Positions 48,816 through 55,862 of a DNA stretch of 64,000 nt are shown here, one piece after another. Location: NCBI RefSeq assembly GCF_036013745.1, contig NZ_CP107880.1:7192001-7256000 (forward strand), given 5' to 3'. The translations under genes and the position numbers were made by a program. Within the stretch, counting starts at the first letter, position 1; each line of letters opens with the position of its first letter. The stretch comes from Streptomyces sp. NBC_00483. GTDB lineage: Bacteria > Actinomycetota > Actinomycetes > Streptomycetales > Streptomycetaceae. The notes below the pieces were generated by a model. It made no database searches and was not told where the DNA came from. It worked only from the letters and a program-made list of their open reading frames with translations.

Positions 48816-49601
48816 GTGCGCACAGCTGTAAGACGCCATCTGGGGAAGCTGATGGCGGTGGTGGCGCTCGCGGTAGCGGGCGGCGCCGTCGCGGTCGGCG
48901 TGACACTGCCTGATGACGACGGGAGCGACCTGGCCAGGGCGGGGACCGCGCAGCAGGACGCGGTGGCCCCCGAGGGCACCGTGGAGCCCGCACCCGCACA
49001 GGGAGCGAAGGGGGTGGGGCGCGATCCGCTCACGGACGCCGAGACGGAGCGCGCAGAGAAGCTGGCGACGGCGGGCAACGCCCTGCGGATGGACGCGCGG
49101 GACGTGGAGGGCGACCGAGGTCCCCAGCACCTGTCGACGAACCTGACAGAGGTCGACCCCGGCCTCAGTGACGCCGCCGCCGACGAACGCCGTGCCGACG
49201 TCGTGTACTACGACTACAAGAGCGACTCCGTCGTCACGAAGACGGTGAACCTCGACACGGGGAAGGTCGAGGACAGCAGGACCGACCAGGGCGTGCAGCC
49301 GCCGCCCAGCCAGGGCGAACTGGCAGAGGCGGCCCAGCTGTTGATCGCGGACCCGTCGGGCGCCGACCTGAAGGGCGACTACAAGGACGCCACCGGCAAG
49401 CAGCTCACCAAGCCGGACCAACTGCAGCTGAGCGGCATGGTGTTCCGCAAGAAGACCGTCGCCGACGTCCCCGCAGAACTCAAGGAATGCGGCGAGCACC
49501 GCTGCCTGCGCGTCATCACCAAGGTCGTCAACGGGCCGTGGATCGACACCCGCGACCTCATCGTCGACCTGAGCGCCCGCAACGTCTCCCGCCTCGGCTG
49601 A
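48816..49601 (+). CDS. Secreted partner resembling N-terminal domains of copper amine oxidase
   Basis: A 261-residue exported protein with an N-terminal hydrophobic signal or anchor (residues 12-33). The rest resembles the D2/D3 domains that precede the catalytic domain in copper amine oxidases: DVVYYDYKSDSVVTKTVNL, then GVQPPPSQGELAEAAQLLIA, and a final DTRDLIVDLSARNVSRL strand. The active domain is absent here but is encoded by the next gene, 40 bases downstream. The GTG at 48816 has GGGGGA close upstream; a TTG at 48804 is possible. The domain match is by eye and needs a profile search. Confidence 0.75.
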   Translation: MRTAVRRHLGKLMAVVALAVAGGAVAVGVTLPDDDGSDLARAGTAQQDAVAPEGTVEPAPAQGAKGVGRDPLTDAETERAEKLATAGNALRMDARDVEGDRGPQHLSTNLTEVDPGLSDAAADERRADVVYYDYKSDSVVTKTVNLDTGKVEDSRTDQGVQPPPSQGELAEAAQLLIADPSGADLKGDYKDATGKQLTKPDQLQLSGMVFRKKTVADVPAELKECGEHRCLRVITKVVNGPWIDTRDLIVDLSARNVSRLG

Positions 49602-49641
49602 GGACCTCGCCGACCTCTCCTCCATGAAGGAGCGCTTCCGT

Positions 49642-50961
49642 ATGCACCTCACAAGACTCTTGCGCGCCCGCATCCGGCCCGCAGCAGTTGCCACGGGCCT
49701 CGCGGTCACCGCGCTGCTCGCCGGCACCCTCGCCACCGCACCCGCCGCGACGGCCGCACCGCCCCAGGCGCCCGCTGCCGCCGCGCCCGCCTGCTCGGAC
49801 GCGTACCGCATCGAGCAGACCCTCGACGGCGGCACCACCTGGCGCATGTGCTGGCACTACAACACGCTGGCAGGACTCGTCCTGGACGACGTCAGCTACC
49901 AGCCCAAGGGCGAGGCCCAGCCGATCCGCGTCCTCACCAGCGCCCGGCTCGCACAGGTCCATGTCCCGTACGACGACGGGGAGGCCGAGTACGACGACGT
50001 TACCGGCACCGACTTCGGGCAGGCCCTGCAGAACCTGAAGCCCGGCGAGTGCCCGGGCGGCACCATCAAGACCGTCAAGGTCCCCGACATGGGCAACGTC
50101 AAGGGGCTGTGCACGACCACGCGTGCGCGCGGGCACGCGTACCGGCTCAGCGACGACTACTCGACCGGCGGCAGCGGCAAGGTCTACAGCGCCCAGGGCA
50201 AGGACCTGCTCGTCTACACGGTCAACAAGGCGTCCTGGTACGAGTACATCACCGAGTGGCGCTTCGCCTCCGACGGCACCATCACGTCCAATGTGGGCGC
50301 CACCGGCAGCCTCTCCCCGTACGACTACGACGGCACCGACGGCAAGGGCTGGCCCATCGGCAAGGGTGCGACCGCCTACGCCGAGAGCCACAGCCACAAC
50401 GTCTTCTGGCGGCTCAACTTCGGCCTGGACGGCTCGCCCAAGGCCAAGGTCGAGCAGTACGACTCCAAGGTGACCCCGCCGAACGGTGACGGATCGCCCA
50501 CCACGAAGACGACCCGCACCCCCGTCACCAAGGAACTCGCGGGTGACGTAAAGGACATGCGGTGGTGGCGCGTGGTCTCCACCGCGGGCAAGAACAAGGA
50601 CAACCACCCCAGGTCGTACGAGTTCGTGCCCGGCCGCTCCAACCGGTTCCCGGGACGCGCCTTCACCAAGCACGACGTCTACTTCACCGAGTACAAGAAG
50701 TGCGAGCAGTACGCGAGCGACAATCCCGCCGCGAACTGCGGGGGCACCAGCGTCAACAAGTGGGTGAACGGACAGACGCTCAAGCACCCGATCACCTGGG
50801 TCAACATCGGGTTCCACCACATCGCCCGTGACGAGGACCAGCAGCCCATGCCGGTGCACTGGCAGGGCTTTTCGCTGGCCCCCAGGGACGTGACCGCTAT
50901 GAATCCGCTCACTCCGGCCGACCTCGCGGGGCAGAACGGGGTTCCCCGAAACGGCAGTTGA
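49642..50961 (+). CDS. Secreted copper-amine-oxidase catalytic domain protein
   Basis: A 439-residue exported protein (signal peptide 1-39) matching only the catalytic beta-sandwich of copper amine oxidases; full enzymes have about 640 residues. The topaquinone site reads SWYEYITEWRFASDG: Tyr200 is kept and followed by Glu, but the invariant Asn before it is Trp199. Copper ligands are His250 and His252 (ESHSHNVFW) and probably His393 (GFHHIARDED). VHWQGFSLAP matches the usual end. ATG 49642 has GGAG 9 bases upstream. Together with the gene before, it would make a complete enzyme in two chains. Confidence 0.85.
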   Translation: MHLTRLLRARIRPAAVATGLAVTALLAGTLATAPAATAAPPQAPAAAAPACSDAYRIEQTLDGGTTWRMCWHYNTLAGLVLDDVSYQPKGEAQPIRVLTSARLAQVHVPYDDGEAEYDDVTGTDFGQALQNLKPGECPGGTIKTVKVPDMGNVKGLCTTTRARGHAYRLSDDYSTGGSGKVYSAQGKDLLVYTVNKASWYEYITEWRFASDGTITSNVGATGSLSPYDYDGTDGKGWPIGKGATAYAESHSHNVFWRLNFGLDGSPKAKVEQYDSKVTPPNGDGSPTTKTTRTPVTKELAGDVKDMRWWRVVSTAGKNKDNHPRSYEFVPGRSNRFPGRAFTKHDVYFTEYKKCEQYASDNPAANCGGTSVNKWVNGQTLKHPITWVNIGFHHIARDEDQQPMPVHWQGFSLAPRDVTAMNPLTPADLAGQNGVPRNGS

Positions 50962-51091
50962 GAAACCGGCGGCCGCATCCGGCTGCATCGCCACCCGCTC
51001 CCGGAGTACCCTTCCTTGATCGTTGCTGGGGGATGGGGTCTACAAGTTCGGGTTCGACAAGCTCGGGGGAGCGGAAGGCGGTGCGGAGCGG

Positions 51092-52360
51092 GTGAGCTCG
51101 GGAGGGCTGGAGCTGCCCCCTGGTGACGACGGTCACGAGGGCCAGGACAGCCAGGAGACAGCCTCCACGGAGATCCCGCCCGGAGCGGTGTCGCTGGCCA
51201 GGCCCATGGACGTCGCGTCCCAGATCGGTCCGGAACTGGACTGGGGCGCCGACGCCTGGAGCGAGGTCCGTACGCGCGCGCAACGTGCGGGGCGGGCCTA
51301 TATCTGGCTGAACCTGGTGGAACAGCGGCTGCGCGCCGTCGTCGCCGCCGTGCTCCGCCCCGTCTACGCGCCCGTGCACGGCGAGGACTGGGTGGTCGCG
51401 GCGGCGGGGCCCGCCGGGCAGGAGTGGGTGCAGCGGGCCGTCGCCGTGCGCGAGGTCAGCCGCCGCAAGGGCTATCTCCTCGACCCGGCCGACGACAACG
51501 TGTTGTCGTTCCTGACCCTGCCGCAGCTGCGCGAGCTGATGGTGCAGCACTGGCCGTGCTTCGAGCCGTACTTCGACGACCGCCGCGACGTCGAGCTCGC
51601 CCTGGACGAGCTGGAGGTCACGCGCAACGTGGTCTCCCGCAACCGCGCCCTCTCGGAGACGGTCCTCGCCCAGGCCGAGCGCGCCTCCTCCCGCCTCCTG
51701 GACATACTCGGCGCCGGCTCCGACGTGCCCTCGGCCCGCCGACTGCCCGTCGACGCCGTCGAGGAACTGGTCGGCGACCGGTACGCGGACGTGGTGGGGG
51801 TGCACTCGGACCGGGTCAGGCTGCTGCGCCAGTTCCCTGCCGAGGACCTCTTCGGCGGGGCGCGGCGCCTGGACGCCATCGGGATAGGCCTCAACCTGCT
51901 CGCGCAGAACTTCTCGGGACGCCGCCTGGTCCGCCTCGCCGAGTCGGGCTGCCGCATACGGCTCCTCTTCCTCAACCCGGCGTCCAGCGCGGTCAAGCGG
52001 CGCGAACGGGAACTGGGGATCAAGCGGGGCGAGTTGAGCCGCTCCGTCGAGATGAACATCCTGCACATGCGCCGGGTGCGGGCCCGCCTCAAGGACCCCG
52101 ACGCCTTCGAGATCCGCGTCTTCGACGAGACACCGCGCTTCAACGCCTACCTCGTCGACGGCGACGGATCGGACGGCATCGCCGTCGTCCAGTCCTATCT
52201 GCGCAGGACGCGGGGGATGGAGGCGCCCGTCCTCGTGCTGCGCGGCGGGGGACGCATCGTCAAGGCGAGCGCGTCGTCGGACACCGGGGAGAACGGCCTT
52301 TTCGTGACGTACCGCGACGAATTCGAGCAGGCCTGGGCGGACGCGCGGCCGGTGTCGTAG
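51092..52360 (+). CDS. HEPN-domain conserved protein (SAV2148-like)
   Basis: A 422-residue cytoplasmic protein conserved in Streptomyces. The N-terminal half (about 50-215) is a helical HEPN-like domain (LDWGADAWSEVRTRAQRAGR, AYIWLNLVEQRLRAVV). The C-terminal half (about 245-410) is an alpha/beta domain resembling a phospholipase-D-like fold without clear HxK motifs. HEPN domains are often RNases or nucleotide-binding, but the R-x4-H motif is not obvious here. The GTG at 51092 has GGAG 4 bases upstream and matches the start remembered for homologues. Confidence 0.8.
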   Translation: MSSGGLELPPGDDGHEGQDSQETASTEIPPGAVSLARPMDVASQIGPELDWGADAWSEVRTRAQRAGRAYIWLNLVEQRLRAVVAAVLRPVYAPVHGEDWVVAAAGPAGQEWVQRAVAVREVSRRKGYLLDPADDNVLSFLTLPQLRELMVQHWPCFEPYFDDRRDVELALDELEVTRNVVSRNRALSETVLAQAERASSRLLDILGAGSDVPSARRLPVDAVEELVGDRYADVVGVHSDRVRLLRQFPAEDLFGGARRLDAIGIGLNLLAQNFSGRRLVRLAESGCRIRLLFLNPASSAVKRRERELGIKRGELSRSVEMNILHMRRVRARLKDPDAFEIRVFDETPRFNAYLVDGDGSDGIAVVQSYLRRTRGMEAPVLVLRGGGRIVKASASSDTGENGLFVTYRDEFEQAWADARPVS

Positions 52361-54314: not shown

Positions 54315-54600
54315 GCTGCGCGCCGACGCGCTGACCCGCGCCGTGCTGCTCACCCAGCCCGAGTACGCACGCAAACGCACGCAAGCGCCCGCAAACGCAC
54401 GGGTGACTACGGGAGTTGGACCCGCCGCACCGTCCTCACCTGGCCGCACTTCGAGTGGCGGCTGTTCGGCCGGTGCCGCGCATCGCGTTCCGCCCGGCCC
54501 CACGGGTCGACGCGGGCGTGCTCCGTATCGAGCGCAGGGCGACGCCGATGCTGACCCCGGACGATTGCCGGCCGACAGGAAACACCCGCAAACCAGTTGT
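54315..54600 (+). pseudogene. Decayed Erm-type 23S rRNA methyltransferase, C-terminal part only
   Basis: Three frame segments join to an Erm-like C-terminus: LLTQPEYARKRT (from about 54345), then GDYGSWTRRTVLTWPHFEWR (from about 54401), then VPRIAFRPAPRVDAGVLRIE. A 20-base gain from two extra 10-base units (GCAAACGCAC) separates the first two, and a one-base loss near 54473 the last two. The first two thirds of the gene, with the SAM-binding site, are gone; 54167-54314 shows nothing recognisable. It lies directly upstream of a macrolide glycosyltransferase gene, as intact erm-type genes do in some Streptomyces. Confidence 0.75.
54371..54400 (+). repeat. 10-base tandem repeat causing frameshift in erm remnant
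   Basis: Three units: GCAAACGCAC, GCAAGCGCCC, GCAAACGCAC. Removing two units restores the Erm reading frame from RKRT to GDYGSW, so the expansion is a plausible inactivating event. Confidence 0.7.
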
Positions 54601-54626
54601 ACGAGACGTCTCGTCTCGCTTACAGT
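54597..54626 (+). promoter_or_regulatory. Promoter with palindromic operator for glycosyltransferase gene
   Basis: TTGTAC (54597-54602) and TACAGT (54621-54626) are 18 bases apart, a good -35/-10 pair. Between them lies the perfect 14-base palindrome ACGAGACGTCTCGT (54601-54614), a typical TetR-family operator shape and place. Transcription would start about at the ATG (54633), giving a leaderless message. No repressor gene is next to it. Confidence 0.72.
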
Positions 54627-54632
54627 CGGATC

Positions 54633-55862
54633 ATGACGAACCCGAGCCACGGCAAACGTGCCCACATCGCCATGTTCTCCATCGCCGCCCACGGGCACGT
54701 GAACCCGAGTCTCGAAGTGATCCGGGAGCTCGTCGCCCGTGGGCACCGCGTCACGTACGCGATCCCGCACCTGTTCGAGGAGAAGATCGCCGAGACCGGC
54801 GCCGAGCCGGTCCTCTACCGCACCACGCTCCCCGGCCCCGACGACGACCCGGCGGCGTGGGGGACCACGCTGCTCGACAACGTGGAGCCGTTCCTGAACG
54901 ACGCGATCCAGACGCTGCCCCAGCTCATCGAGGCCTATGAAGGGAACGGTGAGGTCGAGGGCGTAGGCGTCCCCGACCTCGTCATCCACGACATCACCTC
55001 CTACCCGGCAGGCGTCCTCGCCCACCGCTGGGGCGTGCCCGCCGTGACGCTCTCGCCGAACCTCGTCGCCTGGGAGGGATACGAGGACGAGGTCGCGAAG
55101 CCGATGTGGGAGGAGCCCCGCAAGACTCCGCGCGGCAAGGCCTACTACGAGAAGTTCGACGCGTGGCTCAAGGAGTCCGGCGTACCGAAGACCGCCGACG
55201 AATTCTGGGGCCGCTACGACCGCACCCTCGTCCTCATTCCGAAGGCGCTCCAGCCGAATGCCGACCGGGTCGACGAGAAGAAGAACACCTTCGTCGGCGC
55301 CTGTCAGGGCGACCGGTCCGCGCAGGGCGAGTGGGAACGCCCCGCCGACGCCGAGCGCGTACTGCTCGTGTCGCTCGGCTCGTCGTTCACCAAGCAGCCC
55401 GAGTTCTACCGGGAGTGCGTGAAGGCGTTCGGCGATCTGCTGGGCTGGCATGTCGTGCTCCAGGTCGGCAAGCACGTCACCGCCGAGGACCTCGGGGCGG
55501 TCCCCGGCAACGTAGAGGTGCGCCAGTGGGTGCCGCAGCTGGCGATCCTCAAGAAGGCCGACGCCTTCATCACGCACGCCGGCGCGGGTGGCAGCCAGGA
55601 AGGCCTGGCCACGGCGACGCCGATGGTCGCCGTGCCGCAGGCCGTCGACCAGTTCGGCAACGCCGACATCCTTCAGGGCCTGGGCGTCGCCCGCCACGTA
55701 CCCATGGAGGAGGCGAACGCGGAGACGCTCCGCGAGGCAGTCCTCGCGCTGGTCGACGACCCGGAAGTGGCGCGCCGTCTTGCCGTCATTCAGCAGGACA
55801 TGGCGGGCGAGGGCGGAACGCGGCAGGCGGCCGACCTCATCGAGGCCGAACTGCGCCCCTGA
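54633..55862 (+). CDS. mgt: Macrolide-type glycosyltransferase (MGT/OleD family)
   Basis: A 409-residue GT1 enzyme of the OleD/Mgt type that transfers a sugar from UDP-glucose to a macrolide or similar acceptor and inactivates it. The N-terminal acceptor site shows [18 protein letters not shown] with the catalytic His near residue 21; the C-terminal donor site has [19 protein letters not shown] followed by [10 protein letters not shown]. Length fits the family. Cytoplasmic. The start is the ATG at 54633, 7 bases after a -10 box, so no ribosome site is needed. The adjacent erm remnant supports a past role in macrolide or lincosamide protection. Confidence 0.93.

Follow-up and report, generated by a model that had tools for sequence, protein, structure and literature searches.

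Two adjacent genes of Streptomyces sp. NBC_00483, open reading frame 1 (ORF1) and ORF2, correspond to separate halves of a copper amine oxidase (CAO) in which the Asn that precedes the cofactor Tyr is replaced by Trp. They lie in a stretch of 64,000 nucleotides (hereafter the window; contig NZ_CP107880.1, positions 7,192,001 to 7,256,000) of a host genome that is a single contig of 10.24 Mb (G000). The assignment of ORF1 to domains D2 and D3 and of ORF2 to the catalytic domain D4, with the three domains not in one chain, is well supported. The reading that we prefer, and hold to be somewhat probable, is that the two products are halves of one exported copper oxidase in which Tyr200 of ORF2 becomes topaquinone and Trp199 replaces the role of Asn381 in the CAO of Arthrobacter globiformis (AGAO). 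What the analysis shows is the homology of the two halves, the order of their domains, the linkage of the genes and their conservation; export, assembly, copper binding, the quinone, the substrate and the role of Trp199 are inferred. The observation, first made in an initial annotation of the DNA, was confirmed, and the interpretation given there was partly supported.

Homology of the two genes to copper amine oxidase domains

ORF2 matched PF01179 with an E value of 1.4e-36 and 126.8 bits, against a curated cut-off of 27, and its sequence and fold matches in the PDB identified a D4 beta-sandwich. The alignment to AGAO D4 spanned nearly the whole length of ORF2, in line with the initial annotation, which had seen the catalytic domain alone in this gene. 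Residue equivalences were taken from this alignment, with AGAO numbers counted along the aligned row; several of these numbers match residues named in PMC9491219 and in PDB titles. By the alignment, ORF2 has the equivalents of all three copper-binding His (His250, His252 and His393), the third of which had been a candidate only, and keeps the precursor Tyr, the base Asp and the active-site Tyr of topaquinone-containing CAOs.

The motif around the cofactor Tyr departs from the CAO consensus. In the 80 named Streptomyces loci examined, which are the 80 best-ranking of 442 relatives, Thr-X-X-Asn-Tyr-Asp/Glu is replaced by Lys/Gln/Glu-X-X-Trp-Tyr-Glu, and both Thr and Asn were substituted in every locus. 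Position 196, the consensus Thr, was Lys in 49, Gln in 30 and Glu in one. The Trp199-Tyr200-Glu201 reported in place of Asn-Tyr held up with the ATG start at 49642, in the AGAO alignment and in all 80 loci, where Glu201 and Met403 (AGAO Met602) were also invariant. Since the active-site residues and Trp199 are invariant in 80/80 loci, the pattern is more than chance.

ORF1 was identified through its family. The ORF1 family profile, compared with CAO D2+D3 by hhalign, gave a probability of 96.4 and a P value of 1.4e-9, with decoys far lower, and the predicted ORF1 fold matched CAO D2+D3 in Foldseek and VIA. A chance likeness was rejected, the real value being 77.2 against at most 22.7 for 40 column-shuffled decoys and 17.6 for a reversed decoy. 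ORF1 homologues were numerous (970 matches at an E value of 0.001 or better). When 71 family members were compared with Pfam at E values up to 1, eight matched AGAO-like_N2 (best 3.4e-4) and two matched Cu_amine_oxidN2 (best 0.2); PF02728 was absent from the 13 Pfam families found for these 71 members.

Both chains are probably exported, judging from their hydrophobic N-termini and not from a signal-peptide predictor. A hydrophobic stretch occurred within the first 60 residues of 117/120 ORF1 homologues, and 106/120 ORF2 homologues had a hydrophobic N-terminus. The export proposed by the initial annotation thus agrees with these N-termini, but a twin Arg within the first 14 residues was found in only 61/120 ORF1 homologues.

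Conservation of the split pair and its single-chain relatives

The named relatives among ORF2 matches were all Streptomyces except one 'Actinomycetota bacterium'. ORF1 was upstream of ORF2 in 79 of the 80 loci, its stop lying 41-408 bases ahead of the ORF2 match; at the 80th (L037) the contig starts inside ORF2. The glgX gene and the gene at 51023-52360 both flank the pair in 73/80 loci, the latter being found in 75/80. One flank was missing in six loci, each a stretch cut near the match, and L111 has neither, the pair sitting elsewhere. Across 121 Streptomyces genomes, strong matches to ORF1 and to ORF2 fell in the identical 52, and all 52 keep the two-gene layout on one strand with 43-287 bases between the matches; genomes with ORF2 fragments (G424, G491) or weak ORF1 matches (G400, G404, G456) were excluded from the 52. 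ORF1 was likewise upstream in all 17 further loci, 13 from other genera of Streptomycetaceae and four from Streptomyces. A broken single gene was rejected on the strength of these three sets of loci and genomes. In-frame stops in four ORF2 matches proved to be the gene end, since each fell on the final or penultimate codon of the match. Pairwise dN/dS (the ratio of nonsynonymous to synonymous substitution rates, NG86) was below 1 throughout, with medians of 0.46 for 78 ORF1 pairs and 0.38 for 79 ORF2 pairs, which fits purifying selection on both genes.

The residue before the Tyr was Trp in 15 and Tyr in two of the 17 further loci, and Trp in four and Tyr in two of six divergent Streptomyces copies. 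Two split copies from other genera (L172, L177) read Tyr-Tyr-His and Tyr-Tyr-Gln for Trp-Tyr-Glu and have His-His-His at the copper motif. Three genomes (G461, G449, G485) carry a second, divergent ORF1-ORF2 pair of WYDY type beside the main pair (L113, L114, L115). The locus L116 (G493:C1:10882000-10884800) is a truncated ORF2 copy whose partner is not nearby.

Single-chain proteins related to the pair join both halves in the same order, as judged by profile comparison. In L032, from a distant actinobacterial metagenome-assembled genome (MAG; G379), one chain carries an ORF1-like and then an ORF2-like half; the ORF1 profile matched the N-terminal half of the L032 family (P 1.6e-8) and the ORF2 profile its C-terminal half (P 5.5e-17). 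Among the 120 most query-like of 2599 single-chain matches, the residue before the Tyr was Trp in 100, Tyr in 16, Met in three and Phe in one, and the Tyr, both His of the HxH motif and the base Asp were present in all. At the fourth residue past the second copper His, 80/80 split and 120/120 single-chain proteins have Trp, whereas canonical CAOs have Ala, Phe, Val or Leu (23/23). These single-chain proteins (P0241 family, L032) resemble the pair in their D2/D3-like and D4-like halves, the non-Asn residue before the Tyr and this Trp. They differ in having one chain of about 530-550 residues, Arg after the Tyr (120/120) and no hydrophobic N-terminus (0/120), and their similarity to the Streptomyces pair is only remote. 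Named members came from MAGs called Rubrobacter, Rubrobacteraceae, Propionibacteriaceae or Actinobacteria, and strong matches were rare (3/396 sampled genomes of the phylum).

A tree separated canonical, single-chain and split groups on three long stems and was outgroup-free, and therefore cannot tell which two groups are sisters; the common Trp after HxH would favour single-chain and split proteins as sisters. Two further single-chain, PF01179-like proteins, of 533 residues (L126:700-2298, G258) and 549 residues (L129:1426-3072, G247), have Glu before the Tyr (GEYVLY) and HVHYPFWR or similar, a third non-Asn variant. They keep the Trp after HxH and, by eye, have a hydrophobic N-terminus; L129 passed the Pfam cut-off and L126 did not.

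Cofactor formation with Trp in place of Asn

According to PMC3382800, CAOs of known structure form homodimers in which each chain contains D2, D3 and D4, and arms of D4 lie at the interface. AGAO, a phenylethylamine oxidase of PF01179, is such an enzyme, whereas here there are two chains and the motif Lys-Ala-Ser-Trp-Tyr-Glu. The same host has a canonical CAO (G000:C1:1545780-1546991) that shares the PF01179 domain with ORF2 but has the full-length domain, in a 721-residue open frame, and GNYDY. Asn preceded the Tyr in all canonical CAOs of two sets: 24/24 where the search pattern required Asn-Tyr (one member partial, and L032 dropped as of single-chain type) and 26/26 for Streptomycetaceae loci among the best-scoring matches, where the pattern left that residue free. 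The initial annotation's contrast of Trp with Asn is therefore sound for the canonical CAOs examined, but Trp is not unique, as the wider group has Trp, Tyr, Met or Phe. A plant CAO clade is also reported without the Thr/Ser-X-X-Asn-Tyr-Asp motif (PMC12058724), so motif loss as such would not be new. In open-licence PMC papers, covered mostly by title, we found neither a comparable split or Streptomyces CAO nor a description of the aromatic replacement.

As a reasoned guess at the mechanism, ORF2 would fold as D4 and bind copper on His250, His252 and His393, with Tyr200 as the cofactor precursor and Asp119 as the base, and ORF1 would supply the D2/D3 domains that ordinary CAOs carry in-chain. 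Because ORF2 aligns nearly end to end with AGAO D4, the assembly that we prefer as likely is an alpha2beta2 complex, in which two ORF1 chains sit on a D4-D4 dimer. Copper and O2 would most likely still convert Tyr200 to topaquinone. The side chain of Asn381 in AGAO rests on the topaquinone ring (PMC9491219), and this Asn is described as keeping topaquinone productively oriented (PMC3382800, PMC9491219). Trp199, or the Trp, Tyr, Phe or Met of relatives, would probably do this job as a wedge, and a large aromatic could hold the quinone ring through stacking. The product may be an extracellular oxidase that acts on a primary amine or another amino substrate and releases H2O2. That the Tyr, the copper His and the base do not vary in the 80 loci speaks for an active oxidase and weakens the option of an inactive relative that the initial annotation had left standing.

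Several results weigh against this reading. Strict conservation is reported for the Asn next to the precursor Tyr, and in a yeast CAO the alanine mutant is reported to form only 5-10% topaquinone (PMC3382800). Trp might therefore prevent the cofactor from forming, and with the consensus Thr lost as well, Tyr200 may stay unmodified. The ORF2 model is middling (predicted local distance difference test, 72.6). Superposition of both ORF1 domains in VIA gave a high root-mean-square deviation, about 8, so the mutual placing of D2 and D3 was not reproduced. ORF1 of the window matched no Pfam family, including N2/N3 (PF02727, PF02728, PF21994), and no PDB sequence at E values up to 10, whether searched singly or as a profile. 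The N2/N3 check proposed with the original D2/D3 assignment thus gave no match for the window's own sequence, but the family profile and predicted fold match CAO D2+D3, so the outcome named there as refuting the assignment did not occur. G493 has a second, truncated ORF2 about 112 kb from ORF1 fragments. The G379 MAG is 87% complete and 6% contaminated and holds the only match in its class (1/39 genomes), so its contigs may be foreign and its class placing is unsure. The gene neighbours of the pair give no clue to the substrate.

The strongest alternative, which we consider appreciably less probable than not, is a copper-binding pair without topaquinone, in which Trp199 blocks the cofactor and the proteins bind copper or amines outside the cell or act as a scaffold. 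In its favour, AGAO N381A still makes topaquinone but at a 180-fold lower rate, with a 160-fold drop in kcat and a flipped ring (PMC9491219), and the yeast equivalent is similarly crippled in biogenesis (PMC3382800); two consensus positions are altered in all 80 loci, and the surroundings of the Tyr differ in relatives, as with the Arg at +1 of the 120 single-chain proteins. N381A (PDB 7wir, 7wis) is like the pair in lacking the Asn before the cofactor Tyr, but it is an engineered, slow enzyme with a small side chain and a flipped ring, whereas here a large aromatic was fixed by evolution. Against this alternative, Tyr200, Asp119 and Tyr110, which in CAOs serve cofactor formation and turnover and not metal binding alone, are invariant in the 80 loci, with counterparts in 120/120 single-chain proteins.

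An unlikely alternative is a copper oxidase that relies on another cofactor or another chemistry, with the aromatic beside the Tyr giving rise to a radical, dopa or a cross-linked product and not to topaquinone. In its favour, the 120 single-chain proteins have Trp, Tyr, Phe or Met at this position, all split copies that were examined have Trp or Tyr, and the second change, Trp four past HxH, travels with the aromatic; the base Asp119, which abstracts a proton in CAOs, is nevertheless retained. A Trp-specific cofactor as a general rule was rejected because relatives carry Tyr, Phe or Met, so that such a product is not common to all. A broader proposal, that a separate and widespread bacterial CAO branch, with an aromatic for the Asn and split and exported in Streptomycetaceae, has a changed cofactor route or a new Tyr-derived cofactor and catalyses a reaction other than amine oxidation, seems to us doubtful. 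That the neighbouring genes have separate roles without forming a complex, ORF1 being an unrelated membrane protein, would suit the missing Pfam and PDB sequence matches of ORF1 itself but is very improbable given the profile, fold and decoy tests that place ORF1 with D2/D3, the co-occurrence of strong matches to both genes in the same 52/121 genomes, and the natural fusions of both halves.

Locus and implications

The features of the pair are given in Table 1. The genes are read from the sequence on the same strand with ORF1 first, and the spacing of 40 bases agrees with that first reported. Upstream of ORF1, glgX (NCBIfam TIGR02100) lies on the opposite strand. The downstream product is presumably a HEPN-domain protein. 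A promoter and terminator scan gave no promoter-like site and one terminator-like site (1.7 in shuffles). Elsewhere in the window, 54597-55862 was named a macrolide-inactivating glycosyltransferase by NCBIfam (NF033129, above cut-off).

Table 1. Positions in the window of the two genes, their predicted domains and key residues, and nearby features
Feature	Position	Strand	Description and basis
ORF1	48816..49601	+	GTG start, 261 aa; D2+D3 half of copper amine oxidase, predicted exported or membrane-anchored
ORF1 N-terminal hydrophobic export signal or anchor	48816..48911	+	aa 1-32, end approximate; with RRHLGK
ORF1 D2-like domain	49014..49295	+	aa 67-160, approximate; AlphaFold2 secondary structure, VIA alignment to CAO D2-D3
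ORF1 D3-like domain	49296..49598	+	aa 161-261, approximate; AlphaFold2 secondary structure, VIA alignment
AAGGAG, ribosome-binding-site-like	49627..49632	+	9 bases 5' of ATG 49642; read from sequence
ORF2	49642..50961	+	best start ATG 49642, 439 aa; copper amine oxidase catalytic domain D4
ORF2 probable signal peptide	49642..49755	+	aa 1-38, end approximate; by eye
Tyr110	49969..49971	+	AGAO Tyr284, conserved active-site Tyr; alignment; 80/80 loci
Asp119	49996..49998	+	AGAO Asp298, catalytic base; alignment; 80/80 loci
Lys196	50227..50229	+	replaces consensus Thr (AGAO Thr378); alignment
Trp199 (TGG)	50236..50238	+	replaces consensus Asn (AGAO Asn381); alignment; 80/80 loci
Tyr200	50239..50241	+	AGAO Tyr382, topaquinone precursor; alignment; 80/80 loci
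His250-Ser-His252	50389..50397	+	two copper ligands, AGAO His431/His433; each His 80/80 loci
Trp256	50407..50409	+	4 residues past second copper His; marker of non-Asn group
His393	50818..50820	+	third copper ligand, AGAO His592; alignment; 80/80 loci
Downstream gene	51023-52360		no NCBIfam match

Of the 120 ORF1 homologues listed, those bearing a name were annotated as 'hypothetical protein' or 'Tat pathway signal sequence domain protein'. Annotation therefore overlooks the second chain that accompanies this 'copper amine oxidase'. The split offers a natural handle on the contribution of D2/D3, as ORF1 could be supplied or omitted. With Asn naturally replaced in a site that is otherwise kept, the role of this Asn becomes testable through evolution and not through a crippling mutant.
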